A DNA stretch of 64,000 nt, from contig JABLUY010000026.1 in assembly GCA_013306675.1 (NCBI GenBank), positions 149,273 through 213,272 of the forward strand. Reading direction: 5' to 3'. The notes beneath the pieces are model-generated. The model searched no databases and was not told where the DNA came from. It was given only the letters and a program-made list of their open reading frames with translations. Below, one piece after another: positions 11,126 to 60,782 of the stretch. The DNA comes from Thraustochytrium sp. TN22. Its lineage: Eukaryota > Sar > Bigyra > Thraustochytrida > Thraustochytriidae. The position numbers and the translations under genes were made by a program. Numbering within the stretch: the first letter of the stretch is position 1; the number at the start of each line of letters is the position of its first letter.

Positions 11126-11159
<34 letters not shown>

Positions 11160-21894: not shown

Positions 21895-22484
21895 GCGGAA
21901 GGGGTCCTCGAGGCGGGACGGCGAGCGTACGGAGCACGAGGCAGGCGCCGCGCCAACTCTTTTTAGGTAAGTAGAAGAAGGGAAGCTTCATTATTTCTGA
22001 TGTATTGCGAGCGAGCGCAAGGCCCATCAGTTCGTGCATTGAATCAGCGTCGCGCGACGGCCGGCTCTGACTCGCACAGAAGCAAGAGCGCGAAGCAAAG
22101 CATTGCAGGCGCGCGAAGGTACCAGGTACCACCTTGCACATGCGATCCCCTTGGGAACGCGGCGCCTGGACTGCTCCACTCATCAGAGTCCTGAATCCAG
22201 AAGCTACGCTTGAGAAGAGCCTCCGTTCCGCAAACAGCAAAACTAGAGCCTTGGCCACGCTCGAGTTAAAGCTCAAACCCACCGTGGCGCTTCGCCGCGC
22301 CCGCCAGGTGACCTCCGAGACTGACAACGAGGCGAACTTGGAGCACACAAGGCCACTGAAGGCGACGAGTCCCAGTCCGCGAGTCCCATATTCAGGCCGA
22401 GCCGTGCACTCGACGTCGTCCATAGGCCCTGCGCGCGGTCCAGGTCCTTCTCTTGCCTTGCTTGCCTTGCTTGCCTTGCAAGGT

Positions 22485-22788
22485 GACAAGCTGACAAGCT
22501 GACAAGGTGACAAGGTGACAAGCTGACAAGGTGACAAGCTGACAAGGTGACAAGCTGACAAGCTGACAAGCTGACAAGCTGACAAGCTGACAAGCTGACA
22601 AGCTGACAAGCTGACAAGCTGACAAGCTGACAAGCTGACAAGCTGACAAGCTGACAAGCTGACAAGCTGACAAGCTGACAAGCTGACAAGCTGACAAGCT
22701 GACAAGCTGACAAGCTGACAAGCTGACAAGCTGACAAGCTGACAAGCTGACAAGCTGACAAGCTGACAAGCTGACAAGCTGACAGGCT
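22485..22788. repeat. 8-bp minisatellite, 38 units of GACAAGCT
   Basis: Thirty-eight uninterrupted 8-bp units (304 bp) with no indels. Units 3, 4, 6 and 8 are GACAAGGT, the last unit is GACAGGCT, and the rest are GACAAGCT. All internal variants sit at the left end. Because 8 is not a multiple of 3, every frame reads through as a 24-nt (8-residue) repeat, which explains the long spurious minus-strand frames here. Confidence 0.95.
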
Positions 22789-22932
22789 GGGGCGGGCCTG
22801 CGGCAAGCGTCTGGCCATCGGCAGCCGCAGCGGAGGCTGACTTTGACTTGGCTCATTGTCAATACCGGTAGTTCAATATCAAGCTCCAGACCCTAGCTTG
22901 CTCTAGCTAGAGAGAGCCCGAGCGGTGCCGGG

Positions 22933-22982: not shown

Positions 22983-23352
22983 CTAGGTCTCACAGTCACC
23001 TCCGAGCCGGACTCATCTGACTCGAGCGCTGCTCTCTGTCATTATTGACATCAGGCTCTCGATCATCAGGCCCAGGCCGGCGCAGGCTGGAGGCCAGCTA
23101 GCCTACCAGTACCTAGAAAGAAGCAGAACGGGAATCGAGAGCGAAGGCCGGCGCGCGGCGCGGCGGCGGGCGGCGGCGGCGCGGAGGGCGGCGGAGGCGG
23201 GCCGGGCGAAGGCTGCGGGTCGGGCGAAGGCAAAGGCTGCGGCTCAGGCTGCGGCGAAGGCGCGAGATCGCGGCGCGGGATCGCGGCGCGGCGCGGGATC
23301 GCGAAGGCGGCGCGCGCGCGAACGTTGGCGACGCGGCGCGGCGCGAGAGAGG

Positions 23353-25101
23353 ATGGCGCCCGCGATGAAGGTGACGCTCAAGTGGGAGGAGGGCGGCGAG
23401 GCCGACCACGCGGTGATTAAGCTGACGCTGCCGCGCAAGTGGAAGGAGGGCCCGACGCTGCAGCTCAAGGAGACCTTCGTGGAGCAGTACAATAAGAAGG
23501 CGGGCGAGGAGCGGCTCAAGGTGGGCGAGGTGCACCTGCTGAACACCAAGGGCCAGGCGCTGGCGGACGCTGACGTGGTGGCGCGCGTGCTGGAGCACGG
23601 CGAGCACGTGCGCGTCAAGCCGGGCGCGGCGCCCACCAAGCTGGTGGCGCCCGTGGCCGCGCCGGCGGCCGCGCCGGCAGCGGCGCCCGCGGCCTCGGCG
23701 AGCTCGCGCGCGGCCAGCGTGCCGACGCCGGTCCCGCAGGGTGAAGGGCTGGTGGGCGACAAGGCGGCGCTGGACAAGGCGCGCAAGATCGACTTCGACT
23801 ACTCCAAGTGGGACAGGCTCGACTTGAGCGACGACGACGCGGACGACTGCCACCCGAACATCGACAAGGAGAGCTGGAAGCGGCTCATGGCGCAGAAGCG
23901 CGCGGACCGGCGCCAGAAGGAGGACGAGAAGATCGAGGCCTTCCGCGCCAAGATTGCCAAATACCAGAAGAAACACGCCGACCTGGAGGCCAAGATCGAG
24001 GCGGCCGGCGGCGATGCGGACCTGGGTCAGCTCATGATCGACCGTGACGACGCCAAAGACTCGCTCGACAAGTACCAGGCCAAGCTGGACCACTTTCTGG
24101 CGACGCGCAAGCTCACGGCAGACGACCTCTGCGACGTCAAGGACGACAAGACGACGGTGGCGTCGTCGGCCGCTCTGACGCCGCTCAACACCGGACTGCC
24201 GCCAACGCCGGCGCCTAGCGGCGGCGCCGCGGCGCCGTCCACGAGCTCGTCGACTTCGACCGCCGTGATGCTGCCCGAGGCGCCGCCCGATGAGGGCCTC
24301 GAGTACGACGCATACATTAAGCTGCACCGGCCCAAGGTCGACAAATTCGCGGCGCTACGCTCCGATGAGGCTTCGGAGCAGTTTCTGCTTGCCAATCCGG
24401 AGATTCTGCACAAGCACGCCGAGGGCTACCTGCTGCTGCTCACGCTTGACCTCTGCATGCGGCACCAGGGCGAGGAGGAGGACCGCGGCGGCCTGAGTGC
24501 TAAGCTGCAGAAGGCGTACGCCGAGGAGGAGCTGGCGATTGCGCGCCAGCACATGATCATTCAGTTCGTGCTGGCGCTCGCCGAGGGCAAGCATCGCGAC
24601 CCGCGCGACTTTGTTCGCGCCTTCTTCCTCAAGGCCGGCAAGAACTCGACGCAGCGCGTGGACGGCTTCGAGGACGACCTCGTGGCCTTTGTGGAGCGCA
24701 TCCGCAACCGCGCCAAGGAGAAGCGCAGCAAGGGCGAGGCGTCCCCGCTCGCCTATCACAACCGCGACGACGTCGTCGAGATCGATGACGAGCAGTACGA
24801 GCTCGCGCCTGTTGGTCCGGGCGGCCTTGACCCGAACGAGGTGCTCGGCACGCTCCCGCGTCCCATGCAGGAGGCTTTTATCTCGCAAGACACTGACGCG
24901 CTGCGCGCTGCGCTCCAGGCGCTCTCGGCCGAAGAGGCGCAGTACCATATGCAGCGCTGTGTCGACTCGGGCCTGTGGAACCCGGGTCCGGACGAGGTTG
25001 TGGACGACGACGACGACGATGGTGACGAGGAGGAGGTCGAGGATAAGGCTGCCGCCGGCGGGGCCGATGGCGCGGCTGCCCTCGCTTCCGAGGTCGAGTG
25101 A
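23353..25101 (+). CDS. CDC37: Hsp90 co-chaperone Cdc37 with an N-terminal ubiquitin-like extension
   Basis: 582 residues, ATG at 23353. The Cdc37 kinase-binding N-terminus begins near residue 152: FDYSKWDRLDLSDDDADD, then HPNID. Ser159 in the LSDDD motif matches the CK2 site (Ser13 of human Cdc37) needed for kinase-client binding, and a coiled coil follows (about 175-220). The Hsp90-binding middle domain (about 315-470) includes HMIIQFVLALAEG and GFEDDLVAFVERIRNRAK. The C-terminal domain has GPGGLDPNEVLGTLP and YHMQRCVDSGLW, almost invariant in the family, and then an acidic tail. Normally the diagnostic YSxWD is at the extreme N-terminus; here ~95 extra residues (LTLPRKWKEGPTLQLKETF, ending VRVKPG) precede it, probably a beta-grasp ubiquitin-like domain, joined by an Ala/Pro linker. 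An A-tract follows the stop at about 25111. Confidence 0.93.
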   Translation: MAPAMKVTLKWEEGGEADHAVIKLTLPRKWKEGPTLQLKETFVEQYNKKAGEERLKVGEVHLLNTKGQALADADVVARVLEHGEHVRVKPGAAPTKLVAPVAAPAAAPAAAPAASASSRAASVPTPVPQGEGLVGDKAALDKARKIDFDYSKWDRLDLSDDDADDCHPNIDKESWKRLMAQKRADRRQKEDEKIEAFRAKIAKYQKKHADLEAKIEAAGGDADLGQLMIDRDDAKDSLDKYQAKLDHFLATRKLTADDLCDVKDDKTTVASSAALTPLNTGLPPTPAPSGGAAAPSTSSSTSTAVMLPEAPPDEGLEYDAYIKLHRPKVDKFAALRSDEASEQFLLANPEILHKHAEGYLLLLTLDLCMRHQGEEEDRGGLSAKLQKAYAEEELAIARQHMIIQFVLALAEGKHRDPRDFVRAFFLKAGKNSTQRVDGFEDDLVAFVERIRNRAKEKRSKGEASPLAYHNRDDVVEIDDEQYELAPVGPGGLDPNEVLGTLPRPMQEAFISQDTDALRAALQALSAEEAQYHMQRCVDSGLWNPGPDEVVDDDDDDGDEEEVEDKAAAGGADGAAALASEVE

Positions 25102-29164: not shown

Positions 29165-32100
29165 ATGGCGGACCGCGTCGCGCTCGCTGCCGCAGACCTG
29201 GCGCGCGGCGAGACCGTGCTGAGGTAGGTCCCAGGCCGTCGGCGCCCGCGAGACGACCGCGAGACCAGGTCCGGGTGGTACTACCTGAGGTATTCTTCTT
29301 GTCAGCTGGCTGGCGAGGACAAGAGCGAGCGTGACTGATGATAGAGACGCAGCCTGAACTCGAGCGGTATTGGCCCAGACGACGCGCAGACACTAGCGGA
29401 AGCCATCCAGGGGAACGAGACCCTCGTCAAGCTCATGTGCGTGGAGAAGAAAACAGGACGGCTGGCATCTTTTGGATGATCACGTTGAACTTGCGGGGAG
29501 GTGATAGGGAGACTGACACAATGGACAGCCTCGACCACAACCTGATCGGCGACGAGGGCGTGGAGGCGCTCGCAAGCGTCCTAGAAGGAAACACGTCTCT
29601 CAGGTCGCTCAAGTACGTGTCTGTCTTGGCGCGCGAGAGCATGCGCATGACCCCCTGACCTTCGCGCGGCTGCAGTCTCTACCGCAATAACATCAGCTCG
29701 CGCGGTGCAGAAGCCGTGGCGAGGCTATTGACGCAGAACAGCACGCTCACTCGGCTCATGTACGTCTTCGACCGCACTTCGCACGTGTCCATCGCCAGCA
29801 GGGCTCGCTGACGTACCGCCCACACAGCTTGAGTGCGAATGCGATCGGCGATGCCGGCGTGCAGGCCCTGGCGGCGGCTCTGGGCATCAACCGCTCCTTA
29901 GTGACCCTCAAGTACGTGAGTCGGGCTCAATGCATGCTCGTCGCCCAGGCGTCTGACCGACTCATGTATTTCACTCACACAAAGGCTTGCCACCGCGGGA
30001 TTTGGCGCGAGCGGCGCCCATGCGATCGCCGAACTGCTTCGGGCCCGGTGCAGCCTGGCCCTGCTCGACCTCAAGGACAACGACTTGGGCGACGATGGGG
30101 CAGCGGCGATCGCCAGGGGCCTGGAGGCGAACGCGCAGGTGGTCTTGCTTGTGCTCTCCTACACGTCAATGGGCGACGCGGGCGCCACGGCGCTGGCGGA
30201 GACCCTAGGGCGAAGCTCGGCGTCCGTGCTCGGCACCTTGCTGCTCGACCACAACCACATCGGGCCGGCCGGGGCAGAGATGCTTGCGGGAGCTCTCATG
30301 ACGAACGTCATGATCGCAGAGCTGGACCTCAGCCGAAACGTGCTCGGGGACGCCGGCGCGGAGAAGCTGGCGCAGGCGCTCATGATGAACGCGACCCTCC
30401 TCTCGCTGAACCTGGATGCCAACGACGTGGGCGACAGCGGCGCGCGGGCGCTGGCCACGGGGCTGGCGCAGAACCAGACGCTCCGCGTATTGTCGCTGCA
30501 GCGCAATTCAATTGGAGACACGGGCGCGCAGGCGCTGGCAGACATTTTGCCGGGCAACACGGCGCTCACCGCCCTGATGCTCTCCCTGAACGACATCAGC
30601 GCCAGGGGCGCGCAGGCGCTGGCCGACGCGCTCGAGCGCAACGCTAGCCTGCAGAAGCTCGGCATCCCCGAGCACGAGCTCCCGCAGGATGTGGTAGCTC
30701 GCATCGGAGACCGGCTCAAGGCAGCACGTGAGCAAGTGTCGACCTTCGCGCAGGGCGCCATGAGGTCTCTGGAGGCAAACCAGACGGTGCGCTGGGGCCG
30801 CGCCAAGCTCATGGTGGTTGGACCGAGCGGTGCAGGCAAGTCCTCGACGATTAGGACGCTCCTGGACCAGCCCGTGGTGCTGCGGCATGAGTCCACCATC
30901 GGTGTTGACCTCAAGCTCATGCGCACGCAGGACTGGACCGAGCAGCCCCGTGCCGACACCGCCGACCTGGGCGAGCTGCTCACGAAGCGGTCCATGCGCA
31001 GATCGAGCTTGGGCGAGAATGCCTCGCGCATCCTGCGCATCTCGCGGCGATCCATGCGGGCCGCCAGCAACCATGACCAGCAGGGGTTGGTCCGGACACA
31101 GGAGGCGCAGGAGGCGCAGGAGGCGCAGGAGACGCAGCCGCGCCTCAAAGTCGAGGAGAAGGAGGTGGCCAAGGCGTACAGCGCGACACTGCGCCAGCGC
31201 ATCCAAGAGCAGCAGGCTCGCGGCGTGGAGAAGGACGTGAGTTTCACCATCTGGGACTACGGCGGCCAGGAGGTGTTCTACGCGCTACACCACCTGTTTT
31301 TGACGCAGTATGGCGTCTATGTGGTGGTCTTTGACATGCGCGAGGTCCTTGGCAAGGAGCGCTTCAAGCAGGCCGCTCGCGCGCAGCTGGCGTCGCGCGA
31401 GGACGCCCTGGCCACCCTCGCGTTTTGGCTCAACTCGATCCGTCTGCACGCGCCTGGGGTCGACGTGGCCCTCGTCGGCAGCTTCCTGGACCAGGTCCCA
31501 GATCCCGAGCAGCACCGTGAGATCCAAGACGTCTTGGAGCACAGCGTGCTCATTCCGGCTGGGACCCTCCGCGTGCTGCGCAACCGCGCCGAGAGCCTGC
31601 ATTTCTTCCCGCTCAACAACGTGAGCCGCGGTGAACGCAGCCCGTCGCAAAAACCAGGGCTTTGGTCGCGCTTCTTCACGCGCGGGCCGCTCGAGGCAGC
31701 CGCCGCCACTGGCGCGCGCGTGCTGCGCCTCCGCGAGGAGCTCACTCGCGCCGTCGCGAACCGGCCCTTCGTGACCCAGGAGGTACCGCTCCGCTGGTCC
31801 ATGTGCCTGGAGCGCATGCTGGCGCGGCCCGGGCGCACGTTCATATCACTCGATAGCGTGCGCGAGCTTGCGCAGACGACCTGCGGCATCAGTGAGGAGC
31901 AGGTGCCGGAGATGCTCAGCTTTATGCATGAGCTGGGCGTGCTCGTGCACTTGACGGGCACCCCACGTCTGGCCAGCATGGTGGTGACCCGCCCGCAGTG
32001 GCTGCTCACGCACCTGTCGCGCGTCATTTGCGACCCGGCGCACATGGACTCGCTCAGGCGGTCGCTCCTCTTTGGGGACGTGGAATTCCCGCACAACCTC

Positions 32101-33312
32101 GAGGAGGACCTCGCGACGTGGGCGTCGCGCGGCGTGGCGAGCCGCGCGCTTTTGGAGTGGTTGTGGCGCGGCGAGCACGTGGACTACTTCGTGGACCTTA
32201 TGGAGGACATGCTTCTGGCGTGCCCGAGCCCGTGGATCGGGAGCCCCGAGCACGGCGACCGCGAGGGCGCGCTCCTCATTCCGAGTCTGCTGGCGCCAGC
32301 ATCTGAGGCTACGCGGGAGGACGCGCGCGAAGACTTTGCGAGCAGCGCGCTGGCCTTCGTGGACCTCGACTTTCTGCCTGCGGGCGTCTTCCAGCGTCTT
32401 GTGGCGAGCCTGGTCGGTGCCTACCCGGGGCTCGTGCGCGTGGACTCCGTGGCCGCGGACGCGGCGCGCCTCGAGCTTCGCGGCATGCAGGCGTACCTGG
32501 AGGCAGACGGCACGCGCATCACAGCGCGCATGGCTAGCCGTGGCGTGGTGGGCAGCCTCGCCGACCACGCTGGCGTTCTCCTGGGCCGCTTGCGTGAGAT
32601 CGACGCGGGTTTTATGCACGGCAGGCTGCGGCCGCGGCTCTTTGTGAGTTGCGATGGAACGCCGGCGAAGCAGTCGTGCGTGTCGTTTGAGACACTCGCG
32701 TCCGCCCCGTCCGATGGCGGCCTTGCTTCCCTCGCCAAGACACCACTCCAGCTCGACGCCTTTGCAGTTTGGGTCGCGAATGCCGAGCAGGCAGCAGAGG
32801 TGAGTCGTTCGGCCCTGAGCGAGGACCCGCAGCCGTTCGACGTCTTCCTCTCGCATGCGTGGGGCGCGGACCACGCCACGCACGAGCTCGTGGTGCGCAT
32901 CGCGGACGCGCTGGAGCGCCACCACGGCGTCGTGAGCTGGCTCGACGAGCGCGAGCTGCGCGGCGACGTGATGCGTTCCATGGCGCAGGGCGTCGAACGC
33001 TCTGCCGTCAGCGTTGTCTTCGTCACGCGTGAGTACATGGACAAGGTCAACACTGTTGATCACGAAGACGACAATTGCCGCGCGGAATTTGAGTACATTC
33101 GCAAACGGCACAAGCTTGCGCGCATGGTGCCGGTCGTCATCGACCCGTCCATGACCGACACGGACGAGTGGATTGGCAACTTTGGCATTTGCTGGGGGCT
33201 CAACCCATTCTACGTGCCCATGTTGCGTGGGGGCAACCCTCAAGAAGTTGCCGACCTCGCTCACCGCATCCGGCACACCTTGCGTACCGCCTTTGCCTTT
33301 CATCATGATTGA
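29165..33312 (+). CDS. LRR-Roc-COR-TIR (ROCO family) protein, six exons
   Basis: I place exons at 29165-29223, 29353-29436, 29529-29612, 29676-29759, 29828-29911 and 29985-33312. All five introns are GT...AG (donors GTAGGT, GTGCGT, GTACGT x3), all phase 2. Exons 2-5 are each 84 nt, one 28-residue ribonuclease-inhibitor-type LRR apiece (for example DHNLIGDEGVEALASVLEGN). The joined frame encodes 1,240 residues. LRRs continue to about residue 365. A Roc GTPase follows: P-loop GPSGAGKS (K417) and DYGGQE (556-561), the Roc form of DxxG. A COR-like region covers about 720-1000 (HELGVLVHLTG, VVTRPQWLLTHL). The C-terminus is a TIR domain from about 1082: DVFLSHAWG, VVSWLDEREL, SVVFVTREYM. The position usually held by the NADase glutamate appears to be Ser or Met, favouring a scaffold role. 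Probably a cytosolic signalling receptor; the ligand is unknown. Confidence 0.87.
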
Positions 33313-33633: not shown

Positions 33634-34353
33634 TCAGTGGAAGGCATGGGGATCCTCGCCGTCGTCCTCGCCGTCGTATCCGTCGTCCTCAAAGCGTGTC
33701 CGCCAGCGCTGCACCGGGCCTTCCAGCGCGAGGAGCTCGTTCTCGTCCGGCAAAACCTCATTCTCAAGGCCAAAGTACACAAAGTGCTTGCCGAAGGTGT
33801 TGAGCGCCTCGCCCCAGCCCATGTCCGAAAGCAGCCTGTGGTGGTGATGGTAGATGATGGCGTACACGCGGAAGAGCCGCTTGAAGATGCGCTTCACATG
33901 CACCGCTTTGAAGTCGTCCGGGAAGGGGAGGTCTACGTCCTCCGGAAAAATGTCCGGGTCCGCGATGGTGGCCCCGACCCAGTCTAGCACATAGTCCACG
34001 TACTCGGGTGACGATACGCGGATGGACCGCCCGCTCTCCTTGTCCCTGCGGCGGTATTCGAAGTTGGGCGGGAACCCTTCGCCGACGTGCGGGAACTTGG
34101 CCTGGTGCACCACGTCCACGGTGCTGTAGAAGATCGTCAGCTCATCGAAGAAGTCCGCTGTAGTCGCCGCGAGGAACTCGTCCTCGTCCTCCTCGAAGGG
34201 CAACTCCACAATCCGGCGCAGGTTGCCAACGCCCAGCGTCCGCTGCGACACGCTCGACAGCGTCGCACCGCGCCGGAACGTCCTGGGCCTCTGGACGAGC
34301 GTTGCGTGCGACGCAAAGTCGCGCGGGGCCCTGGCCGATCGGGACGAGCGCAT
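33634..34353 (-). CDS. MOB kinase-activator protein, copy A
   Basis: 239 residues, ATG at 34353. MOB/phocein proteins bind and activate NDR/LATS kinases in Hippo and mitotic-exit signalling. Family landmarks: RTLGVGNLRRIVELP, then ADFFDELTIFYSTV, then VSSPEYVDYVLDWV, then FKRLFRVYAIIYHHHH and FGKHFVYFGLE. The basic triad that binds phospho-threonine on Hippo kinases is kept (KRLFR; K153, R154 and R157 of human MOB1A). The structural zinc ligands are not: the place of C79-x4-C84 reads VHQAKF, and H161 is Ile. The tail (FEDDGYDGEDDGED) is unusually acidic. First of four tandem, same-strand copies. Confidence 0.88.
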   Translation of the reverse strand: MRSSRSARAPRDFASHATLVQRPRTFRRGATLSSVSQRTLGVGNLRRIVELPFEEDEDEFLAATTADFFDELTIFYSTVDVVHQAKFPHVGEGFPPNFEYRRRDKESGRSIRVSSPEYVDYVLDWVGATIADPDIFPEDVDLPFPDDFKAVHVKRIFKRLFRVYAIIYHHHHRLLSDMGWGEALNTFGKHFVYFGLENEVLPDENELLALEGPVQRWRTRFEDDGYDGEDDGEDPHAFH

Positions 34354-34874
34354 CGCTCTCTGCGGCGCCGCTGCAGAGCCCAGCCACCGCCCGCCCGCCT
34401 GCGCTGATTGTCCTTTGCACGCGGCCTCTGCACGGCTTCGCGGCCTTTTGGCTTTGCACGGCTTTGCACGACGGAATTTGCGGTTCCACGGACCCGGCCG
34501 GGCTTCAAGTTGGCTACGGAGAACCCGTCACGTATCCCGGTGTCGCAGCCGGAATGGGGAAGCTCAAGGGGGAGGGGAGAACGCGCCAGTGGTGGGCGCC
34601 CAAGGCCGGTGCGACGCCGCAGATCGGCGGCCTGTGCATAGAGCAATCTCAGGCTTTCCTTCACCGTACCGGTGGTACCATGGTACCAGCGTCGCGAGTA
34701 TCACGGGCAGAACTCCGATTGTCCGTGCTGGCAAGTGACAAGCTCGAGGCTACAATCTGTCCCGGCCTAGCCTGGCGACGTTCGCGAAAGGAAACGATAA
34801 AATTTCATGAATGACGTGTGCTGGCCGGCTGGCTCGCCACCGGGCGCTCGCGGTGAGGTTTAACATATGCTCAA

Positions 34875-35564
34875 TCAGGACTCCTCCTCGTACAGGCTCT
34901 TCATGCGCTTGACAGGACCCTCGAGCGCCAGGAGCTCCTGTTCGGGCGGGAGGACGTCGCACTCCAGGCCGAAGAAGATGAAGTGCTTGAAGCAGGTGTT
35001 CAGGTGCGCGACCTTCTCGAGGCTTTCGATCTCAGTAAGGAGGCTGTGGTAGAGAATGGCGAAGATGCGGAAGAACTTTTTGAAAATGTCGCGCACATAC
35101 TCGACGAAGTTGTCCGGGAAGGGCTGGTCCTCGTCCACGGGGAAGATGTCCTGGTTGTCGATCTGGTCCTCGGCCCAGGTAAGCGCGTAGTCAACGTATT
35201 CGGGCGCGGAGACGCGCACAGCCTTGTCGGCGCTGCTGTCGGCCCAGCGGTACTCGAAGCCGGGCGGGAAGCCTTCGCCGACCTTGGTGAAGCGCTCCGT
35301 CGCGCTCTCGGCGACCATGCCGTAGAGTTCCGCCAGCTCGTTCCAGAACTCCACCGTGTTGGCGGCCAGCCAGTCGTCAAAGTCCTCGCCCTCCGGCTGG
35401 CGCACGGCCTGTCGGACGTCGCCATGGCCCAGCGTGAGCATCGTGATGCGCATCAGGTTGGCGCCCTTGGCCGTCTTCTGCGCCTTGCGATGGTGCAGGC
35501 TCGCCTGCTCCGTCGCCTTGTCCTCATCCTTGTCCTTCTTCTTCCGAAACATTTCCTTGTACAT
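34875..35564 (-). CDS. MOB kinase-activator protein, copy B
   Basis: The frame is open to 36035 but starts there with TTG and runs through Arg/Ala-rich repeats. The ATG at 35564 (MYKEMFRKKK) gives 229 residues, matching the other copies. MOB landmarks: MLTLGHGDVRQAV, NTVEFWNELAELYG, FEYRWADS, VSAPEYVDYALTW, AHLNTCFKHFIFFGLE and LALEGPVKRM. Of the phospho-peptide triad, FKKFFR keeps basic residues. All four zinc ligands are lost: the Cys pair reads S-ATER-F, and the YHSLLTE segment lacks both histidines. The most divergent at the zinc site of the four copies. Confidence 0.88.
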   Translation of the reverse strand: MYKEMFRKKKDKDEDKATEQASLHHRKAQKTAKGANLMRITMLTLGHGDVRQAVRQPEGEDFDDWLAANTVEFWNELAELYGMVAESATERFTKVGEGFPPGFEYRWADSSADKAVRVSAPEYVDYALTWAEDQIDNQDIFPVDEDQPFPDNFVEYVRDIFKKFFRIFAILYHSLLTEIESLEKVAHLNTCFKHFIFFGLECDVLPPEQELLALEGPVKRMKSLYEEES

Positions 35565-36158
35565 CTTGCCGCCCTCCGCCGCCGCCGCCGCGCCCCGCGC
35601 GTATGAGCTCTCCGGCAAGATAGCGCGCTGCGGAGAGCCGAGATGCACGAGCACGTGTGCGCGTGCGCCACGCGCCACCGCTCGCGCCCTGCCCTGCGCG
35701 CCGCCGCCGTGCGCGGTGCGGAGCAGACCAGAGCGGAGCCGCGCCGCGCCGCGCCGCGCCGCGCTCAGCCGCGCCGCCCCCCCTCGCCGCCGCGCTCGCC
35801 GCCGCGCTCGCCGCCGTCCGAGTTGCGCGTCTGGAGGGCACGCGCGCACGCTGGCACGCAGCACGTGCGGTACGAGCAGGAGCAGGAGCAGGCGCAGGCG
35901 CAGGCGCAGGCGCTGGGCGAGCTGGAGGGCGCGGAGAGGGAGAGCGCGGCCACGCTCGAGCGAGACGGCCGTCGCGGCAAGACCTAGAAGGAGGGCAAGG
36001 CGCGGCGGTAATGTCTGACTTTGGAATAAAATCAACCTTAGGCCTGGTGGGCGTCGTCGGCCCGGGCGAGTTCAATGGACGTGCAGGCGACCGTGACAGC
36101 GGTTCGGCGCTTGTCGTGGCGTGAACCGCGAGTTCGGGACTATAAGCTTGGAGGCTGG
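35565..36158. other. Spacer between MOB copies B and C
   Basis: Low-complexity GCC/GCG repeats (for example GCCGCGCCGCGC at about 35738-35765) and GAGCAGGAGCAGG/CGCAGG repeats at about 35875-35915. Frames in both directions are repeat-driven, with no domain. Likely the leader of copy B and the 3' end of copy C. Confidence 0.5.
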
Positions 36159-36860
36159 CTACGGGAGATCGTCGACTTCGTCGCCTTGCTCGCGGTAACA
36201 TGTGCGCATGCAAGCCACCGGACCTTCAAGCGCGAGGAGGTCGGCGTCGTCAGGGGTGAGGTCGAGCTCGAAGAGGAAGAACATGAGGTGCTTGAAGGAC
36301 GTGTTGAGGTGTGCTACGGCACCCTACTCTTCCATGACGTGAAAATGGTGGTGGTACATGATGGCGAAGACGCGAAAGAGCTTTCTGAAGATGTCTCGTG
36401 CGTAGTCGTTGAAGTGTTCAGGGAACGACATGCTGTCCAAAATGGGGAAGATCTCTTCATTGTCGATCTGGTCCTCGACCCAGGTCAGGGCGGAATCGAC
36501 GTACTCGGGCGACGACACGCGCAGGGCCTTGGAGCCGGGGGACTCGGCCCAGCGGTACTCGAAGTTGGGCGGGAAGCCGTCGCCGGGCTTGGTGAAGCGT
36601 TCGGCGTCGCTGACACACAAACTGTAGAGAAGTTCTACCTCATTGAAGAAGACGATCGTCTGTGAAGCAATCCACTCATTTCTCTCTTCGCCTTCCGGGA
36701 TCATGACTGCGCGGCGCAGGTTTCCGCTTCCGAGGGTACGCTTGGTAAGGTTTGAGAGCATTTCCCGCTTCTCCGTGGGTTGAGCCTTGTGCTTTGGAGC
36801 GCGCGGCGCTCTGGCCGAGGTGGCGTCCTTCTGGCTGCGGATAAGCTTCCGAAACAGCAT
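36159..36860 (-). pseudogene. MOB kinase-activator, copy C, interrupted by an in-frame TAG
   Basis: From the ATG at 36860 the frame runs MLFRKLIRSQK, through RTLGSGNLRRAVMIPEGEE and FRKLFRVFAIMYHHHFHVMEE, to a TAG at 36326-36324 after 178 residues. Past that stop the same frame continues without further damage for 54 codons, giving AHLNTSFKHLMFF, then LLALEGPV, then GDEVDDLP and a TAG at 36161-36159. The tail is the missing MOB C-terminus and matches copy D (AHLNTCFKHFLFF, GDEIDDLL). The internal TAG takes the place of a Leu codon in copy D, so a single TTG-to-TAG change would explain it. TAG is a genuine terminator elsewhere in the window, so codon reassignment is unlikely. It could be a young pseudogene, a read-through product or a sequencing error. 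Zinc Cys ligands and the first His are absent, as in its siblings. Confidence 0.8.
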
Positions 36861-37420
36861 CTCGACGGGCGCTTCTTCTGCACACGTGACACGTGCACTT
36901 GACTGCCTCGGTGACGCCTCAGAATGACCTCCTGCGCGTAGTCGCCTTGCCTCCGGGGCGCGTGCTTGCTCGCTGCGGCAGAGCTGGCCGCCGCGGCGCT
37001 TGCGCCCGCTGTTGCCCTCTCACGCAAGGCGCGGCGCGATTCTGGTCTGCGGTTCCCATGACTCCGAAGTCCGTCGGCAGATCGTCAGGCTCCGGCGCGT
37101 GCAGGCGAGCATGCAGGGCCAGGGAAGGCCGCTAGGCCAGGCACAGCTGCCAGGCGAGCGTCGGCGCGAGCGTCGCGGGATGCGGTCCTGCCTGCCGCCA
37201 AGATCGTCTCATCGCCGCTCCCACTCGGGCTCACGCGCCGAAAGAACTCGGGCACGAACGTGGCAACAAGCGGAGAACGAGCTACTTGCTTAGCTAGAGC
37301 TGTATACGTTGGCGGAGATCGCCTTGGCGTGCGCCCGCTCCCGGTGGCGCCACGCAGCCGTCTGCTGTCGAGAGCGCCGCCGCATGAGCTTTAGTCTGAA
37401 ACGCTGGGAAGATGCACTTA
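36861..37420. other. Spacer between MOB copies C and D
   Basis: 560 bp with no recognisable gene. Presumably the promoter of copy C and the 3' region of copy D. Confidence 0.5.
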
Positions 37421-38101
37421 TCAGAGTAGGTCGTCAATCTCGTCGCCATGCTCATGGTACTCTTCGCGGAGAAGGCGGACGGGGCCCTCGAGCGCCAGGA
37501 GCTCCTTGTCCTCGACGAGTTCCCAGTGCAGGCAGAAGAAGAGGAAGTGCTTGAAGCACGTGTTGAGGTGCGCCTGGGCCTCGAGCTCTTCAAAGACATG
37601 GAAGTGGCGGTGGTACAGAATGGCAAAGATGCGGAAGAGGCGCTTATAGATGTCCTTGATGAAGTCGATGAAATTGTCCGGGAACGGCTCGTCCTCCATG
37701 GTGGAAAAGATCTCCTCATTGTCGAGCTGGTCCTCCACCCAGGTCATGACGTAGTCAACGTACTCGGGCGCGGAGACGCGGATGGGCTTCTTGTTGTTGG
37801 ACTCGCCCCAGCGGTACTCAAAGCCGGGCGGGAAGCCTTCGCCGGGGTTCGTGTACTGCGCAGCATCGTCCACGACGAGGCCATAAAGCAGCGAGATCTC
37901 GTTGAAGAAGTCCACCGTGTTGGCAGCAAGCCACTCGCACTCGTCCTCGCCATCCGGCAGCTCCACGGTCAGCCGCAGGTTGCCGCTTCCCAGCGTGCGC
38001 TTGGTCAGCTTGGAAAGCGTCACGCGCTTGAACGTGCCCTGCTTCTTGACGGGCTTGAGCGTCTGCTTCTCGCCGCGTGCGATCATCGTGCGAAACTTCA
38101 T
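37421..38101 (-). CDS. MOB kinase-activator protein, copy D
   Basis: 226 residues, ATG at 38101. The most canonical copy: SKLTKRTLGSGNLRLTVELP, NTVDFFNEISLLYGLV, FEYRWGES, ITVSAPEYVDYVMTWVEDQL-type helix, YKRLFRIFAILYHRHFHV, AHLNTCFKHFLFF and LALEGPVRLL. The KRLFR phospho-threonine-binding triad is intact. Zinc ligands: the C79/C84 equivalents are Asp and Tyr (DDAAQY), H161 is Ile, and only the H166 equivalent remains. It shares its N-terminal basic start (MKFRTMIARGEK) style and GDEIDDLL tail with copy C, suggesting C and D are the closest pair. Confidence 0.9.
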   Translation of the reverse strand: MKFRTMIARGEKQTLKPVKKQGTFKRVTLSKLTKRTLGSGNLRLTVELPDGEDECEWLAANTVDFFNEISLLYGLVVDDAAQYTNPGEGFPPGFEYRWGESNNKKPIRVSAPEYVDYVMTWVEDQLDNEEIFSTMEDEPFPDNFIDFIKDIYKRLFRIFAILYHRHFHVFEELEAQAHLNTCFKHFLFFCLHWELVEDKELLALEGPVRLLREEYHEHGDEIDDLL

Positions 38102-39167
38102 CGTCCAGACGCGCTCAAAGGACTCCTCCCCCTGCTGCCTCGTCGCCCCAGGTTGTCTTTTGCGGTTCCCGCGCGGCGCGCCTCGACGCTGCCGCTCTGG
38201 TTTCGCGCCCAGCCCTGTGGCGAACGCGAGCTGCGCAGGCTCCTTGAGCCCGACTTGGCGCCCGCGCTACGAGCCTACGCGCGTCCGCGCCGCGCCGAAG
38301 GGCTGCGACAGCCTTGGCGACTTGGCGCTCTGCTGCTGCACGAATGCGACGTCGCCAAAGCGTGCCGTACGTGCCAGGGACATCCGCGATGCGTCCAGGG
38401 AAGGTGGCACGGTGCGGATTCTTGGCACATCGCCTCTGAGCAGAGGCCCTCGCTGACTGTCATCAATGGGGCCTCTCCTGGTTCGTGCTTCTCGCCGTGA
38501 TGGCTGACCAATCCGCTGCTCAAGAGTGTGTGGCGCTTGTCTTGCTGGTGTCACGAGTGGTGTTTTTCGCCCAGACCCGCTCCGCTACTTCGCCTCCTCG
38601 TCCCTCCCGAAGCTCGTTGCTTCGCTGGCCATTGCCCCAGGCAACCTCGCCATCAGCCCGTAGTGGCTTGCTGAGCTTCTCCCCGTCGCCGGTGTGGGCA
38701 TCACGGCGGTCGTCCGCACGTCGTAGGTCCCGACCCCCACTGCAGTAGCCACGTCTTCCGTTCTCTCCGAGGCCGTGGCCATTCTCCCAGCCTGCAGCTC
38801 CTTGCACGCCGGGCCCAAGGCAAGCCGAGCCGAGCCGAGTCGTGCTCGCAAGACTCGCAGTGCTCGTCGAGGTAGTAGTTCTCGCCGAGGTCGTAGATCT
38901 CGCCGAGGTCGTGGATCTCGCCGAAGTCGCACCAGGGCCGGCGAGGTTCGCGAGGCCGCAAAGGCCGAAGAGGCTATCGCCGAGGTCGTCGTCGAGGTTG
39001 TCGTCGAGGTTGTCGTCGAGGCTATCGCCGCCGAGGTCGCCGAGGTCGTAGGCGCTGAGCTTCTCAGCGTCGCCGGTTGGGTCCAGCCAGAGCGGCAGCA
39101 AAGCTCGCTCGAGTCCGGGCGCGCGCGCGCGGCCGGCGGCGGCGGCGGGACCGGCGGCGGCGGGGCG
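38102..39167. other. Divergent spacer with GAGGTCG repeats
   Basis: Between MOB copy D and the sorting-nexin gene. Repeats read GAGGTCGTAGATCTCGCC-like at about 38867-38935 and GAGGTTGTCGTC (12 bp) at about 38983-39025. The sorting-nexin frame is open leftwards to a GTG at 38775, but that segment is repeat-encoded Arg/Ser, so I treat it as leader. Confidence 0.6.
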
Positions 39168-40900
39168 ATGGAGGGCAGCGCGCTGGAGGAGGCGGCCGGC
39201 GCGCTGGGCTTCTTGGCGCTGGCGGCGCTCGTGTACCATGCGGTGCGGCTGGCGCAGCTGCACCTGCTCCCGGCGGCGGGGCGGCCGCGCGAGGGAGACC
39301 GCGCGCAGCGGCGGCGCGGCGGCCAGGCGTGGCGCGGCGGCACGGACGGCAAGCGCGAGAACGCAGCCTGGGTGGTGGACGAGCTGCTGACGGCCGAGGG
39401 CAGGCAGCGGCCGCCGCTGGACGGCGGCGCGCCGCCGGCGTGGGAGACCGTCCACCCGGGGCGCGCGCTCGCGCACGACTTCGATCACGCCGGCACGACG
39501 GTCAAGCTGTCGACGGCATATATGATCGGGCTGCGCTGGGACCTGCCACTAAACGTGTCCATGGAGCTCGGGCTCTTTGCAGACCTCATCGTAAAAGACT
39601 TCATCCTGTACTGGTACAATGAGAGCATCTCCAAGGACTCGCAGTTCCCAGACGACGTGCGCTCCGTGCTGCAGAACGTGCTGGGCAAGCTTGGCGACCG
39701 CATCCTCAGCGTGAACCTGCCCATGTTCCTCCTTTGCGACATCAGCTACGTCCTGCGTCACCACCTGCGCTGGTTCGCGGAGCTCAAGAAGCGCGCGCGC
39801 AAGCGCTGCCACCCCGAGTCCGAGTTCGACGCCATCTCGCAGGGCGACCGCAACAAGCTCATCATGGAGGAGTTCCGCCGCGCCGGCCACCTGCACCCGG
39901 CCTGCAGCATCACGGGCGAGACGGAGGACCCGCGCACGCTAGCCTACGTGCGCAGCGTCACCAGCGAGCTGCTCGTGCGCCTGCTGCCTGAGAATGACTT
40001 TCATTGCGCCGCGCTGCGCCACCTGGTGCGTGAGGTCCTCACGTGCAACATCCTCGTGCCTACGCTCGAGAGCGTCACGCCGGACGTACTCAACACGGTG
40101 ATTCTGCAGATTCTGCGTGATGAGGGCGCCGGCGATGAGGGCGCGGGCGCGGGCGTCGCTGGCGACGCCGGCGACGCGGCAAACTCGCCCAGCTCGGACG
40201 ACGCGCCTGGGTCGCCCGTGCCGTCCGCATCGGGCCAGCAGGAGCAGGGTTCCACTGCGTCAACGACCTCGTCAACTGGGCCTCGCAGCCCAACGTCCAG
40301 CAGGGCCAGCGAGTCGCAGGACGGCGCACGCGGGGGGCACCACATGGCGCTCTCTCCCGGCGTGGAGCGCGACGTGCGCTCAGTGTCTGCCGTCACGGCC
40401 GCATCCCTGGCTCTGGATGCCGACGAGGATGGCGCTCAGCAGCAGCAGCAGCAGCAACATCAGCAGCAGACGCTGTCCCACCAACAGAGCAGCATCGACT
40501 TCATCCACGAGACAAACGCGGTGATGCGTCAGGAGGAGGCCGGGCGCCTCGTTGTGGAGCTGCAGGGTGCGCTCGCGGACTGCGTGGCGCAGTTCACCGC
40601 CGACCCGGACGACCCGCTCGGCAACGAGAGCGCCGCTGCGCGACGGCTCCTGCATGTGCTGGACCTCTTGCTGACGCACGGTGTGCTGGACTCCACGGAA
40701 GACGACCCTTTTGACGCCGTGGCCGAGCCTTGGTGGGACTATGTGCGCAAGGTCAGCGAGCTCGTGCCGTCCACGGCCATGTCCACCAATGCCGTGGACA
40801 CCGTCGTGGACGCCTTTATGCTGGCGGCCGAGGAGGCCTCGGACGGGGCGGGCGCGGCCCTCGGGAGTGAGGATGAGGACGGCGGGGGGGGCGCCGACCA

Positions 40901-40945
<45 letters not shown>

Positions 40946-41884
40946 TGGTGCACGTGGGCGCACGAGCTCGCCCGCGGCCTCCTCGTCGCGGCGTGTGGCG
41001 AGCCCGACCAAGCGCTCGGACGCCTATGAGCAGGACATCTTGGCGCCCGGGCGCGCGTGGCTGGCCATGATGCTCAAGCACAAGCTGCTAGCCGAGGCGA
41101 TACAGGCACTGGTCCAGGACCACGTCGGCACAGACCAGCACTACGACAAGACGGCGGCCGTGCGCAATGAGCGGCTCTTACCAACGCTGGCCACGCTAAA
41201 CGGCGTGAACTTCGAGTTTGACCTGACGCGCTTTTGGCGGCGCGCCCAGCGCGTGCGCGCCAAGCTCGAGAAGCGCGGCATCAAAAGCAACAAGCAGGAG
41301 CGCCTGCGCAGGCTGCGGCAGCGTGTGATGAAGAAGTTGTCAAAGCGCATCCGCAGCAACGGGACCAACATGCCGGATCAGGCCATCGTGGCGCTGCAAG
41401 ACCGCGTAGGCGCTATCCGCAGCAGCATCAGCGGGTTCACGGTCAAATCCTCAGGCCGGTCCAGCTACGTGCAGTACGTGCTCTCCCTCTCGCTGACACG
41501 ACGCATCGATGGCGGCATTGCCAATTGGGTCGTCTTCCGCCGCTACTCCAAGTTCAACGAGCTGCACCAGGTGCTGCGGTCGCGATATGGTTATCAGTTT
41601 GATGACGTCTCGCTGCCCAAGAAGGGCGGCTTCTTCAGCGCCCAGAACATGACCTTTATCAACTCGCGCAAGCAAGAGCTCGCCGTGTACCTGGAGAAGC
41701 TTCTGCAACACCCGGTGGTGTGCGACTCGGAGGAGCTCCTCACCTTTATCAGCCCGCAGTCCGCCGAGGACCTCGAGGAGAGCAGCGTGGCTGCCTCGCC
41801 TTCACCCCTGACGCCGCCTGAGGCGCCCGCTGGCCACCAAGAGCAGGAGCAGCAACTGCAGCAGCAATTGCAGCAGCAGCAATC

Positions 41885-41916
<32 letters not shown>

Positions 41917-42650
41917 CATTGGCTGGGCCGGCGCGGTCCGCCGACGCCATCCCGCCGTCCGCGGTGGCGAGCCGGCAAAAGGCGCTGGCGGCCTCGGGTG
42001 GTCAGCTGCCGCGCGCTGGGGTCGGCGCAGTCGCCGCGGCGACGGCAGCCGCTGCGCGGCGGCCGGCTGCCAAGCCTACCCCGCGCCATGGGACGGGCGA
42101 CGTGCGCATCGACCCTGCTGACCTGCAGCTGGCCGAAACGCACGTATACAAGCTGGCGCAGGAAATTTTCGAGTTCCACGAGATGTCGCTGCTGAGCAGA
42201 AACCTCATCTCCTTCACGCGCAGCCTCGTATCGCTCGTCTTCCAAGGCACAGCACAGCGCTGGCTGCGCGATAACTACACACGCGATGCGAGTGCCAAGC
42301 TCCTGACCAAGCTCCTGGCCACGGTCCGCGAGCTGCTCTGGCCTAACGGCGAGTTCGCAGAGGGCAACGAGGAGGACGAAAATGCAAACACCGAGGGCGA
42401 GACCCCGGGCAAGGAGGAGCGCGAGATTGAGGAGCGCCGCGTCGAGGCGCTGCAGGAGATCCTTAAGAACATCCCGGCGCCCATGACTAAATTCCTCGGC
42501 CACGACAAGGCCCATCGCTGCGCCGGCAAGCTCCACGAGTTCCTGCAGCACCCGACCTTGATCCACAACCTGGTCTTTACCACGCTCGACCTCCTCTTGC
42601 TCCGCATCTTTCCCGACCTGCCGCTCAAGGAACTGCACCAGGCGCTCTGA
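39168..42650 (+). CDS. Sorting-nexin-like protein: TM anchor, PXA, RUN, PX and nexin-C domains
   Basis: 1,160 residues from the ATG at 39168. Residues about 11-28 (ALGFLALAALVYHAVRLA) are a likely membrane anchor. PXA at about 95-315 (VHPGRALAHDFDHAG, then VSMELGLFADLIVKDFILYWY). A RUN-like domain at about 465-690: LLTHGVLDST, WWDYVRKV, then ILAPGRAWLAMMLKHKLL, and YDKTAAVRNERLLPTLATLNG ahead of VNFEFDL. PX at about 755-865: VVFRRYSKFNELHQVL (RRYS is the PI3P-contact motif) and LPKKGGFF. Nexin-C at about 988-1158, ending LLRIFPDLPLKELHQAL. This layout parallels SNX13/14/19/25, ER-anchored proteins that bind endosomes or lipid droplets, but with RUN in place of RGS. Poly-Gln (about 40437-40455 and 41848-41920) and poly-Gly (about 40903-40945) tracts sit in linkers. 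Confidence 0.85.
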
Positions 42651-48520: not shown

Positions 48521-50386
48521 GCTGTCGCGCGCGAGACCGATTGATTCGCGACGGGACGAGACGGGACGGGACGAGATGCGAGGCGACTCCTGATGAGCCG
48601 AGCCGAGCCGAGTCGAGCCGAGCCGAGGAGTTTGACGAGTAGGACGAGAGATGGAGATCTGAGGCCGCCCCTGGCGCCGTCCGAGCCGGACCCCGCTGCC
48701 GCCACCGCCGCCGCTGCCGCCGTGCGCCGGAGCTCGCGCCGCGCGCGCGCCGAGCGCCCCTGCCCCCGCCGCCGCCCGCCGCCCGCGCGCGAGCCCCGGG
48801 CGCCAAGCGCCGCGCGGAGAGCAGAGGTCGGGTCGAGAAGAGGGTTTGCTTTCTCGTCGTCGAGGCGAACAACGCGAAGGCGCTGCAGGCCGGCGGCGCG
48901 ACGGCGAGCGAGCAAAGGCGAGTGAGCAAGCGAGCAGGCGAGCAAGCGAGCGGACGAGCGGACGATCGAGCGGACGAGCGAGCGAGCGAGCGAGCACCGG
49001 CCTCGTCCGGCGAGCGAGACTGAGCTTGGTGGCAGAAAGACGAAGGGGTCCGGAGTGAAGAAGCTGCTGGGCCGGTACATGATAGAAAACGACATGGTGG
49101 GACGAGGCATCGCCATGGCAAATGCTTTGCTAGCTAGAGGAGAGTCGAGTTGGATGGTGCAGGCGCTGCGTGACGTGTTGCGGTGGAAAGCGCGTAGCGA
49201 TGAAAGATTTTGGGTTGGAGGCCCTTCACGTGTGCGGGGACAAGTCCAACTCATGAGACGCAAACTTCTGACGAATCAATGATGGTGTTTTGCTCGAGAG
49301 CTCCGTCAACACATCCGCGCTTTCCTCCAGGCCTAGCGCACGCAGCCTTGCTTCATTCGTCGCAAACACATTACACGCGCGCACACAGGCGCCACGGGCT
49401 TCAGCAAAGCTGTTCTGCCAACCAGCCAGCCAGCCAGCCAGCGATTGCAGCGAACCTGACTGTGAATGCATGCTGCCCTTGTGCCGCTGCCGCACAGCCG
49501 CCACCGTACAGCGATACTACACAGCTGCCGTCACCTACGTCCGTGCGTGATAACGTCCGCTCACCACAGTGCCAGAGCTCAGCACGCGCCGCCACGCGCT
49601 CGCGGCCTTCAGTTTCCAGCGAGAATGATTCGTGCATCGGCTCCACGTCTGCTGCCTTGGCATCAAATTCAGCTCAGCTCGTACGCTCGATCGGTCAAGA
49701 AGCGCAGTCTGTCTCTCTAGCCGCACACGCGCTCGTCCCGCTCGCGCGCTTCGAGTTGTCGGCGCATCGACCATCTCCCGAGCTCACTCCCCACAAGGTC
49801 GGTCCCTCGAAAGACCGACCTGTTGGATGCGTCCGATGCGAGCTCGGCGTGAGCTGCGCTCGCCCCGAGGCCGTCCGCCGTCCGAGCCGTGCCGTCGCCC
49901 GCCGTCACGCGCTTGCCTTTCTCGCGCGCTGCCGTGGACTTGGCTTTATCTGCTTGGTTGGTAACTGCTTCAAGTACGCCGCCGTCACGCCGGCGGATTT
50001 TATCACAGTGGTGGTAAGTTACGGGTACCACATGTACTTGTGCATTTCTGCTGCGACGGCCGATGCGCGCGCGGAAGTACGGGCCGGCCGGATGCGGAGC
50101 GGAGCGCGAGTCATGCCTCGCAGTAGCGTACGCCGTACGCCGTGCGGTGAGCGTTTTTTGCTCTCACTTTGCTTTTCGCTTGTAGAAGGCAGAGCGTGGA
50201 TTCCTGGACTCGTGGTTGGCACCAGGCAGGCCGCAGTTCTTGATCAGATCAGATCGAAGGCCAAAACCAAGCGCAGCAACCAAGCCAAGACGTTGGCAGG
50301 GCGGGGCGAGAGCACAGCCCAAGTCCGCGGCGGCGCTGAGAGCACAGCCCAAGTCCGCGGCGGCGCTGTGCATCGGGAAGGCGGCG
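48521..50386. other. 1.9-kb divergent spacer, repeat-rich at the left, no gene seen
   Basis: Repeats: GAGCC (5 bp) at about 48597-48628, and GAGCAAGCGAGCG/GACGAGCG at about 48905-49000. From 49050 to 50300 I see only domainless frames, with AGCCAGCCAGCC at about 49424-49442. The right end holds a 30-bp direct repeat in the leader of the DOMON gene. Confidence 0.55.
50308..50367. repeat. Perfect 30-bp direct repeat in the DOMON-b561 leader
   Basis: 50308-50337 and 50338-50367 are identical (GAGAGCACAG...GGCGGCGCT), ending 19 bp before the ATG at 50387. Confidence 0.9.
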
Positions 50387-52261: not shown

Positions 52262-52544
52262 AAGAAGGAAAGCAGAGCCGAGAGAGGCAGGCGAACGTGC
52301 CGTGAGATCAAGAGATCCTCAGCCAAAGCGCCCCGAGATTGATCAAGAGAGTGAGCGCGCGCGCGAGCGCGACGAATGACCCAAGATTAATTAACTTACC
52401 AGTCCCAGGCATCTTTCATGTGACCGAGAGCCTTGGCAACATCGAGAATCTTGCACGCACGCAAGGATGATCCTTTTCCGGTAATTGCTGTCGCGAGGCT
52501 CAACTCAACTGCCTGCTTGCCTGCCTCCCTCCCTCCCTCAGGCT

Positions 52545-52597
<53 letters not shown>

Positions 52598-59981: not shown

Positions 59982-60782
59982 CGTCCAACGCGTGCTGCGC
60001 GGAGCGCGTGCAGAACAGCAGCTCGACGAGCCGCACGACGAGCGTCGCGCGCGTGAAGACGCAGCAGCTCCGCGCCTCTCGACGAGCAGCGCAGCTCCAC
60101 GAGCACCACGACGAGCGAGACGCTCGCTGCTCAAGGTCGAGCAAGCCCCTGGCCGGCCGCCGCGTTTGGCGCGTCTGCAGAGCCACGTCGCCGCTTCGCT
60201 TCTTTCTCCGCGCCCTGCCCCTGCGCGCGAGCGGCGCCGGGTGCCAGGCCAGCTTGATCTCGTTTTGCCGCTCGCCGCCCGCCGCCGCGCTCTCGCTGCC
60301 TGTGGCGGAGAACGGGGCACGCGCACCGCGCCACTGCAGCAGCCGCTGGCAGTGAGGCGTCGTCGTCGTCGCGGCTCGGAAAGGTGGCGAGCGGGGGCGA
60401 GCGGGGGAACTTGGCCGCCGGCCGCTTCGGGAGCCCTGCTGGGCGCGGGCGAGCGGGCGGCCTTGCGAGGGGCGAGAGGGCTTCGCGAGGCGTGCGGCGG
60501 CTGCACGTTGGCTCGACGAAGGTGCCTCTGCACGAGGCGGGGAATTTGGCCAAGGTCGGGCCGGGTTCTGGGGGTTCTGCGGGTCTCGTCGGCGAGGGCG
60601 CCGGGAACCGCAGTGCTCCATGGAGGCTGCTGGCTGCACTCTCACCACTGTGGTAACTTGCAGCGACGGTCCGTCACGGTCCGGGCCGTGCAGCCAGCCA
60701 GCAGGTGCAGTGACAGGGCGGAAGGATTGTTACTACTACGGTGTTGGTTGTGTCGCTAAGGCAGTGGGAAGTGATGAGGTCA
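59982..60782. other. Spacer between the OSCA copies
   Basis: 0.8 kb. The left 550 bp is open in the copy A frame but starts without ATG and reads as Arg/Ala/Pro low complexity, so I treat it as leader. No other gene. Confidence 0.55.

Follow-up and report, generated by a model that had tools for sequence, protein, structure and literature searches.

The locus raises the question of whether the loss of a structural zinc site in four neighbouring MOB genes of Thraustochytrium sp. TN22 belongs to the array itself or to a wider class of MOB proteins. The window, which is the whole stretch of 64,000 nucleotides that was analysed, carries a head-to-tail series of four MOB-domain reading frames, all on the minus strand, from position 33634 (end of copy A) to position 38101 (start of copy D).

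Arrangement of the MOB genes

A Pfam profile search matched all four frames to PF03637 (cut-off of 27 bits), with scores of 138.7 bits for copy A, 173.5 for copy B, 169.8 for copy C and 207.2 for copy D. Copy A (33634..34353, minus strand; 239 aa) was the most divergent, and copies A, B (34875..35564, minus strand; 229 aa) and D (37421..38101, minus strand; 226 aa) each end at TGA. The first part of copy C (36324..36860, minus strand) runs through to an in-frame TAG at 36324-36326, which shortens the protein to 178 aa compared with about 232; the continuation past this codon (36159..36323, minus strand) is still MOB-like, including the AHLNTSFKH region, and closes with a TAG at 36159-36161. 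Programmed read-through was considered for copy C and set aside; a plain stop, from a recent mutation or an assembly error, is simpler because TAG also ends two other MOB genes of the same genome. The sequence-only reading had counted four copies, and four MOB frames are indeed present; however, owing to the TAG in copy C, the intact copies of the window are apparently three (A, B and D).

Additional copies were found elsewhere in the 37.9 Mb assembly, where all 12 PF03637 matches, belonging to 11 genes, lay above the curated cut-off of 27 bits. A fifth copy (E), nearly identical to copy D (dN of 0.042 and dS of 0.14), stands just beyond the window on the plus strand (C188:147276-147878), and other contigs hold six further MOB genes. 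Chance resemblance is excluded because copy D matched solved MOB1 chains with phmmer E-values down to 4e-60 (5b5v).

Two plus-strand open frames lie outside the MOB array: a ROCO-TIR type neighbour at 29920..33309, with LRR, Roc, COR-A and TIR domains, and a sorting nexin type neighbour at 38727..42647, with PXA, RUN, PX and Nexin_C domains. Two MOB loci adjoin ROCO-TIR genes, and an open frame on contig C407 joins MOB, RhoGEF-like and TIR domains. A COR-A match lay within 5 kb of two of the seven MOB loci, compared with 0.012 expected per locus (binomial P of 0.003, or 0.011 at 10 kb), a pattern that was spotted post hoc and whose P-value assumes uniform placement. We regard the link between TIR/ROCO genes and MOB loci as a lead only.

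Zinc positions and a proposed zinc-free class

Human MOB1A, whose residue numbering is used throughout, and MOB1B bind zinc via C79, C84, H161 and H166. In contrast, the first three of these ligands were missing from all 11 genes of the genome, each of which had Ile at position 161, with a GxGFP motif accompanying it. In the alignment, the four positions read H/H/I/H in copy A, A/K/I/L in copy B, A/K/I/H in copy C and A/N/I/H in copy D. The earlier claim of four tandem MOB genes that had lost both cysteines and carried Ile at 161 was thus borne out in every window copy. The position equivalent to H166 was retained in nine of the 11 genes, the exceptions being copy B (Leu) and the C133 gene (Cys). 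It had been stated that, of the four ligands, copies C and D keep only this histidine, which is correct for both; copy A keeps it as well. No canonical zinc-bearing MOB was found in the genome by PF03637, by a CCHH MOB1 query at E-values up to 10 or by a human MOB4 query, so the search proposed by the sequence-only reading returned only the same MOB places.

To place these genes among other MOB proteins, we compared 276 aligned rows: 150 had Ile161 without Cys79 and Cys84, 124 were CCHH, one was FCHH and one was gapped there, counts that are not prevalences because most zinc-free rows were collected with zinc-free queries. The 150 zinc-free rows shared the signature G86-x-G88-F89-P90 together with I161 (G86 in 98%, G88 in 100%, F89 in 99%, P90 in 100% and I161 in 100%), while the 124 CCHH rows had V86 in 83%, S88 in 89%, A89 in 98%, G90 in 96% and H161 in 100%. 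The GxGFP motif sits in the loop from H3 to the hairpin, and Ile161 lies on H5. The two cysteines and the first histidine were therefore absent together, with a near-invariant signature in their place, and almost no intermediates between the CCHH and Ile161 states were present in the 276 rows.

Although only a minority of rows carried a taxon name, the Ile161 rows included Hondaea, Mucochytrium and several ochrophytes, and all six Hondaea proteins among the matches listed were zinc-free. No zinc-bearing labyrinthulid MOB was named among the best 120 of 5154 matches to the CCHH alignment (scoring covered the 7984 candidates with the most words in common), many of which were plant or metagenome proteins. 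Oomycetes and diatoms were likewise not named among the matches listed, the best 120 per protein search. As judged from the alignments, the zinc-free state is lineage-wide and not peculiar to the array, since it is common to labyrinthulids and several ochrophyte algae. In this limited sense it is a common MOB state in other organisms, a circumstance that the sequence-only reading had named as telling against its own claim. These results suggest that zinc-free MOBs are an old, overlooked class common to several stramenopile groups.

Phylogeny and origin of the array

The unrooted tree of 11 CCHH and 61 zinc-free rows separated the two groups with a split support of 100/100. Removal of 30 trait columns left the same split at 100/99, and it was recovered in 100% of 200 bootstrap trees of the 72 rows. 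All 11 genes of the genome have I161, and 10 were placed on the zinc-free side in the main trees; the C133 gene was omitted from these trees for its long branch, and a quick tree put it with the C375 gene and Hondaea P0129. The proposal of a distinct MOB subfamily is supported by this arrangement, in which the Ile161 rows form one side of a strong split, as is the proposal that the zinc ligands were lost before the duplications.

The proposed local expansion did not hold as one event. Copies D and E clustered with Hondaea P0003, P0004, P0006 and P0016, and copy C clustered with Hondaea P0049 and with genes on contigs C99 and C407. A single clade of copies A to E, a constraint that took in E and the long branches of A (2.62) and B (1.13), was rejected at a cost of 53.8 lnL units (p-AU of 0.00037). 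For these reasons, the array does not appear from the trees to be one local expansion; the contig now brings together duplicates that derive from two or more older sub-lineages. When a human MOB4 sequence was added, the root fell among the zinc-free rows; this tree was not used for rooting, since its MOB4 branch, at 10 changes per column, carries little weight.

Four other readings were weighed against an old zinc-free class. It is unlikely that the organism has a zinc-bearing MOB that the assembly lacks or that introns conceal, with only the extra copies being zinc-free: the six-frame search proceeds exon by exon and the assembly comes with no completeness figure, but none of the three genome queries added a place, and the listed Hondaea proteins were uniformly zinc-free. 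Decay of the array, in which redundant MOB duplicates would have lost zinc under relaxed selection, is quite improbable. The premature TAG of copy C and the long branches of copies A and B would fit such decay, whereas proteins of other stramenopiles show the same loss, accompanied by a replacement motif that hardly varies. Moreover, copy D is an intact frame that shares 79% identity with one Hondaea protein, and dN was lower than dS in every one of the 36 pairs compared, which covered nine of the 11 genes, all but C85 and C133 (ratios of about 0.26-0.69, with many high dS values).

It is very improbable that a metal is still bound through other residues, such as the histidines of copy A in the aligned 79, 84 and 166 region. 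Copy A, whose loop is one residue longer, has His at or beside both lost Cys positions and an HHHH run that spans the H164-H166 equivalents, and 86% of the zinc-free class carry His or Cys at position 166. However, copy A is a single divergent copy, copy B has Leu at 166, Ile161 is present in 100% of the class and no near-universal gained Cys or His column was found in the 150 rows. The sole clearly enriched column was Cys109 (69% of the zinc-free class compared with 20%), where copy D has Val. Copy A aside, the view that no new conserved ligands replaced the zinc site therefore held within the class. Repeated loss of zinc, with the class being a long-branch grouping, is most improbable: there are long branches in the tree, the split has no root and the quick MOB4-rooted tree placed the root within the zinc-free rows, but the same five replacement residues occur throughout, almost without intermediates, and the split persists without the trait columns.

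Fold, kinase partner and significance

Structure prediction, which the sequence-only reading had suggested as a check, gave the MOB fold with confidence for copies D (mean pLDDT of 92.0) and A (86.0), and both models matched MOB1 best. The basic triad for phospho-threonine (K153/R154/R157) was said to be kept; it is basic in all four window copies, although the residues are not identical (KRR in A, KKR in B, RKR in C and KRR in D). Thr occupies position 153 in two of the 11 genes (C375 and C133) and in 27% of the zinc-free class. E49, E51, E55 and D63 are named as kinase-contact residues in PMC4917820. Eight of the 11 genes (A, D, E, F, G, H, I and J) had E51, E55 and D63 together, the deviations being D55 and E63 in B, V63 in C and Q63 in K. 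E49 was present in six (B, C, F, G, H and I) and was changed in two window copies, to Phe in A and, mildly, to Asp in D. Additionally, contig C299 encodes an NDR-type kinase (frame of 769 aa) whose best solved match was Cbk1 (E-value of 1.8e-110), with the alignment running through the N-terminal regulatory, MOB-binding region.

Two family surveys describe the zinc ligands as near-universal in MOB proteins (PMC2684140, PMC7761452). The real exception in the 2007 survey of 192 proteins is the S. cerevisiae Mob2 type, three more being set aside as probably poor sequences (PMC2684140), and the 2020 review names Mob2 and one Naegleria sequence (PMC7761452). Mob2, the partner of Cbk1, likewise lacks the two zinc cysteines (PMC7761452, PMC4917820, PMC2684140) and is still a coactivator of an NDR-type kinase. 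However, Mob2 is described as keeping H161 and H166 (PMC7761452), whereas position 161 is Ile in all 11 genes here, which are thus not of the Mob2 type. No support was found in PMC4428629 for a zinc site engineered into yeast Mob2. The Toxoplasma gondii MOB1 motif is also divergent (CQC compared with CxxxxC; PMC8698288), yet two Cys and two His are kept there as a zinc site. Titles and abstract openings yielded no paper on zinc-free MOBs beyond mentions of yeast Mob2. MOB4/phocein showed only 17% identity, and the human MOB4 query matched the known MOB places alone (best E-value of 0.0026). In the alignment, the zinc ligands of the human MOB4 sequence read CCHH.

We favour, with a probability of roughly 0.75, an old zinc-free MOB1-like class whose members are still NDR-kinase coactivators, with three of the four window copies apparently intact. 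Members of this class would bind no structural zinc; where zinc would normally pin the loop to helix H5, apolar packing of Phe89 and Pro90 on Ile161 may hold it instead. The paralogues may serve, as alternatives to one another, as coactivators of a single NDR kinase or a small number of them. A wider version is tentative and rather doubtful: the whole thraustochytrid MOB family would be zinc-free, the canonical MOB having been lost and replaced by an apolar GxGFP/Ile161 plug class, with about 11 coactivators that share a single NDR kinase or a small number of such kinases, some of these coactivators being wired into TIR/ROCO signalling.

The MOB family is known, and what is new is a lineage-wide zinc-free variant with a fixed five-residue signature. 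This signature, standing in place of a metal site, offers a natural test of the role of zinc in MOB proteins and, if the packing is true, a clean case of metal-to-apolar replacement. It also opens stramenopile NDR/Hippo-type signalling to direct comparison.

MOB genes in the window and the genome

The genome containing the window comprises 37.9 Mb in 453 contigs, and its search with the Pfam profile PF03637 revealed 12 matches representing 11 MOB genes: five lie on C188, the contig of the window (positions 149273-213272), C99 carries a tandem pair, and C407, C375, C85 and C133 have a single gene each, that on C85 consisting of two matches with an intron between them. Searches of the genome with a zinc-bearing (CCHH) query and a human MOB4 sequence found no MOB places beyond this set. 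Four of the genes lie on the minus strand of the window: A (33634-34353), B (34875-35564), C (36324-36860, continuing beyond a TAG to 36159) and D (37421-38101). In the alignment with human MOB1A, copies A to D have HHIH, AKIL, AKIH and ANIH at the zinc positions C79/C84/H161/H166, and KRR, KKR, RKR and KRR at the basic triad K153/R154/R157, respectively. Ile161 was present in all 11 genes, and Cys at 79 or 84 in none (0/11). For comparison, PMC7761452 counts three to four MOB genes in fungi and fly, whereas humans have as many as seven.

The TAG interrupts copy C within its conserved C-terminal part, and TAG also terminates two other MOB genes of the genome. Because nonsynonymous/synonymous distances between copy C and gene G of the same genome were similar upstream (0.235/0.905) and downstream (0.26/1.05) of this codon, the stop probably arose recently or reflects an assembly error. 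Copy D has a near-identical twin, E, on the opposite strand about 39 kb away (C188:147276-147878; dN 0.042, dS 0.14), a pair that goes back to inverted duplication or gene conversion of fairly recent date. The best named relatives of copy D among the matches listed were proteins of Hondaea fermentalgiana, a thraustochytrid (Labyrinthulomycetes, Stramenopiles) according to a taxonomy look-up, the closest being 79% identical; the genome is therefore probably that of a labyrinthulomycete near this group.

The array is flanked by an LRR-Roc-COR-TIR frame of ROCO type (29920-33309, plus strand) and, on the other side, by a plus-strand PXA-RUN-PX-Nexin_C frame identified by domain matches. Two of the seven MOB loci have a ROCO-type gene (Roc, COR-A, TIR) nearby, at 29920-33309 and at C85:75043-76395, with distances to the COR-A match of 1.9 and 3.2 kb and a chance of about 0.003 in a test applied after the fact; the genome holds 123 TIR_2 and 46 COR-A matches. 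A minus-strand open frame of 846 aa at C407:117872-120109 combines a MOB domain (187.1 bits) and a TIR domain (38.9 bits) with a RhoGEF-like stretch whose 25.7 bits fall short of the 27.6-bit cut-off, and is a possible MOB-RhoGEF-TIR fusion.

Elsewhere in the window, one minus-strand open frame (7757-11278) joins NIF-type phosphatase, mRNA capping enzyme and cap guanine-N7 methyltransferase domains, and a second cap N7 methyltransferase frame occupies 1537-4542 (plus). In a 1521-aa frame (17326-21888, plus), a GmrSD_N domain scores 35.3 bits against a cut-off of 33.2; the domain takes its name from a restriction endonuclease and is found here in a eukaryote. About 39 tandem copies of the 8-bp unit CAAGCTGA (22479-22789, 97% matches) stand directly upstream of a Cdc37-like frame (22987-25095). 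Neighbouring pairs of DOMON + cytochrome b561 frames (50186-55996, plus) and of PHM7_cyt (10TM transporter) frames (57090-63790, minus) are possible tandem duplicates.

A proposed zinc-free class of MOB proteins

Three protein searches (E ≤ 0.001) gave 886, 2266 and 5154 matches, and the best 120 of each yielded 263 proteins (P0002-P0264). The alignment of 276 rows comprised 261 database proteins, the 11 genes and four human MOBs, one of them MOB1A; P0122 and P0170 (both >330 aa) and P0001, which is copy A itself, stood outside it. Isoleucine at 161 was found in 150 rows, including the 11 genes, and CCHH in 124, with one FCHH row (P0220) and one gapped at 161/166 (P0110); most zinc-free rows were gathered with zinc-free queries, so these counts do not measure prevalence. 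Positions 86-90 in the I161 rows read G-x-G-F-P, each of the four named residues being conserved at 98-100%, and mostly V-M-S-A-G in the CCHH rows.

Among the matches listed, the taxon names on the I161 side were Hondaea (six), Mucochytrium, Thraustochytrium sp. LLF1b, Ectocarpus, Tribonema, Chrysoparadoxa, Phaeothamnion, Fibrocapsa and Paraphysomonas; lineages were verified for five of these nine taxa. Dinoflagellate-labelled MOBs (P0005 and P0033, Durusdinium; P0131, Symbiodinium) also sit on the I161 side, P0005 and P0033 beside thraustochytrid zinc-free MOBs in the tree and P0131 with chrysophyte ones, near Paraphysomonas. As P0005 and copy D share 77% identity, contamination of these assemblies is likely.

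The MOB family is known; no description of the zinc-free I161 class was found in the available text of PMC2684140, PMC7761452, PMC8698288 and PMC4917820 or in listings of the MOB literature, and a term search of PMC4428629 gave no match. In the available part of PMC7761452, identity at C79/C84/H161/H166 in unicellular organisms is 97%, 94%, 100% and 100%, and no labyrinthulid or brown alga is named among its sequences.

Phylogeny and origin of the array

After thinning, 110 zinc-free proteins remained, and 75 of them entered a quick tree of 104 rows together with 14 CCHH proteins, likewise thinned, the 11 genes and four human rows. The three human rows other than MOB1A, the C133 gene and 28 unnamed rows were removed for a careful tree of 72 rows. 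The careful, unrooted tree separated 11 CCHH from 61 zinc-free rows with branch supports of 100/100, and without 30 columns around the trait the split remained at 100/99 and was present in all of 200 bootstrap trees (100%). The picture is complicated by the quick tree, whose root, when MOB4 served as outgroup, fell among the zinc-free rows, on a branch of a length that makes it unreliable. Zinc loss is the simpler direction of change, since human MOB2, MOB3 and MOB4 align as CCHH.

A single clade of copies A-E was rejected (p-AU 0.00037), although the test shares the model's pull because A and B are long branches. In the careful tree, D and E clustered with Hondaea P0003, P0004, P0006 and P0016 (100/99), C clustered with the C99 pair, the C407 gene and Hondaea P0049 (99/73), B attached to this latter group (84/87), and the place of A was uncertain on its long branch. 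Four Hondaea proteins carry the same longest-contig figure (279,657); as they are thus probably on one contig, MOB clustering may be older than the split from Hondaea.

Candidate partner kinase and proposed mechanism

One clear NDR-type kinase frame was found (C299, 769 aa), whose alignment with yeast Cbk1 (E 1.8e-110) begins in the N-terminal regulatory region and continues through the kinase domain. The count is at least one, as scoring covered 91 of 291 candidates and weaker kinase matches on C27, C22, C313 and C295 reach upstream of the kinase domain. Compared by eye and ungapped with human NDR1, the C299 frame has counterparts for Y31, R41, R44 and R78, and Met at T74. According to PMC4917820, these five NDR1 residues are required for binding MOB1 but not MOB2. 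On the MOB side, the kinase contacts E51, E55 and D63 are all present in eight of the 11 genes, and E49 in six.

The MOB1 zinc ties H3 and the hairpin to the end of H5, as described in PMC2684140. We propose that an apolar lock, in which the GxGFP loop would pack on I161, replaced this tie in a MOB1-like ancestor common to labyrinthulids and ochrophytes, while the kinase face and basic patch would have been left in place. Yeast Mob2, which is without the zinc cysteines and partners Cbk1, is the precedent. Later duplication would then have supplied several coactivators for few kinases.
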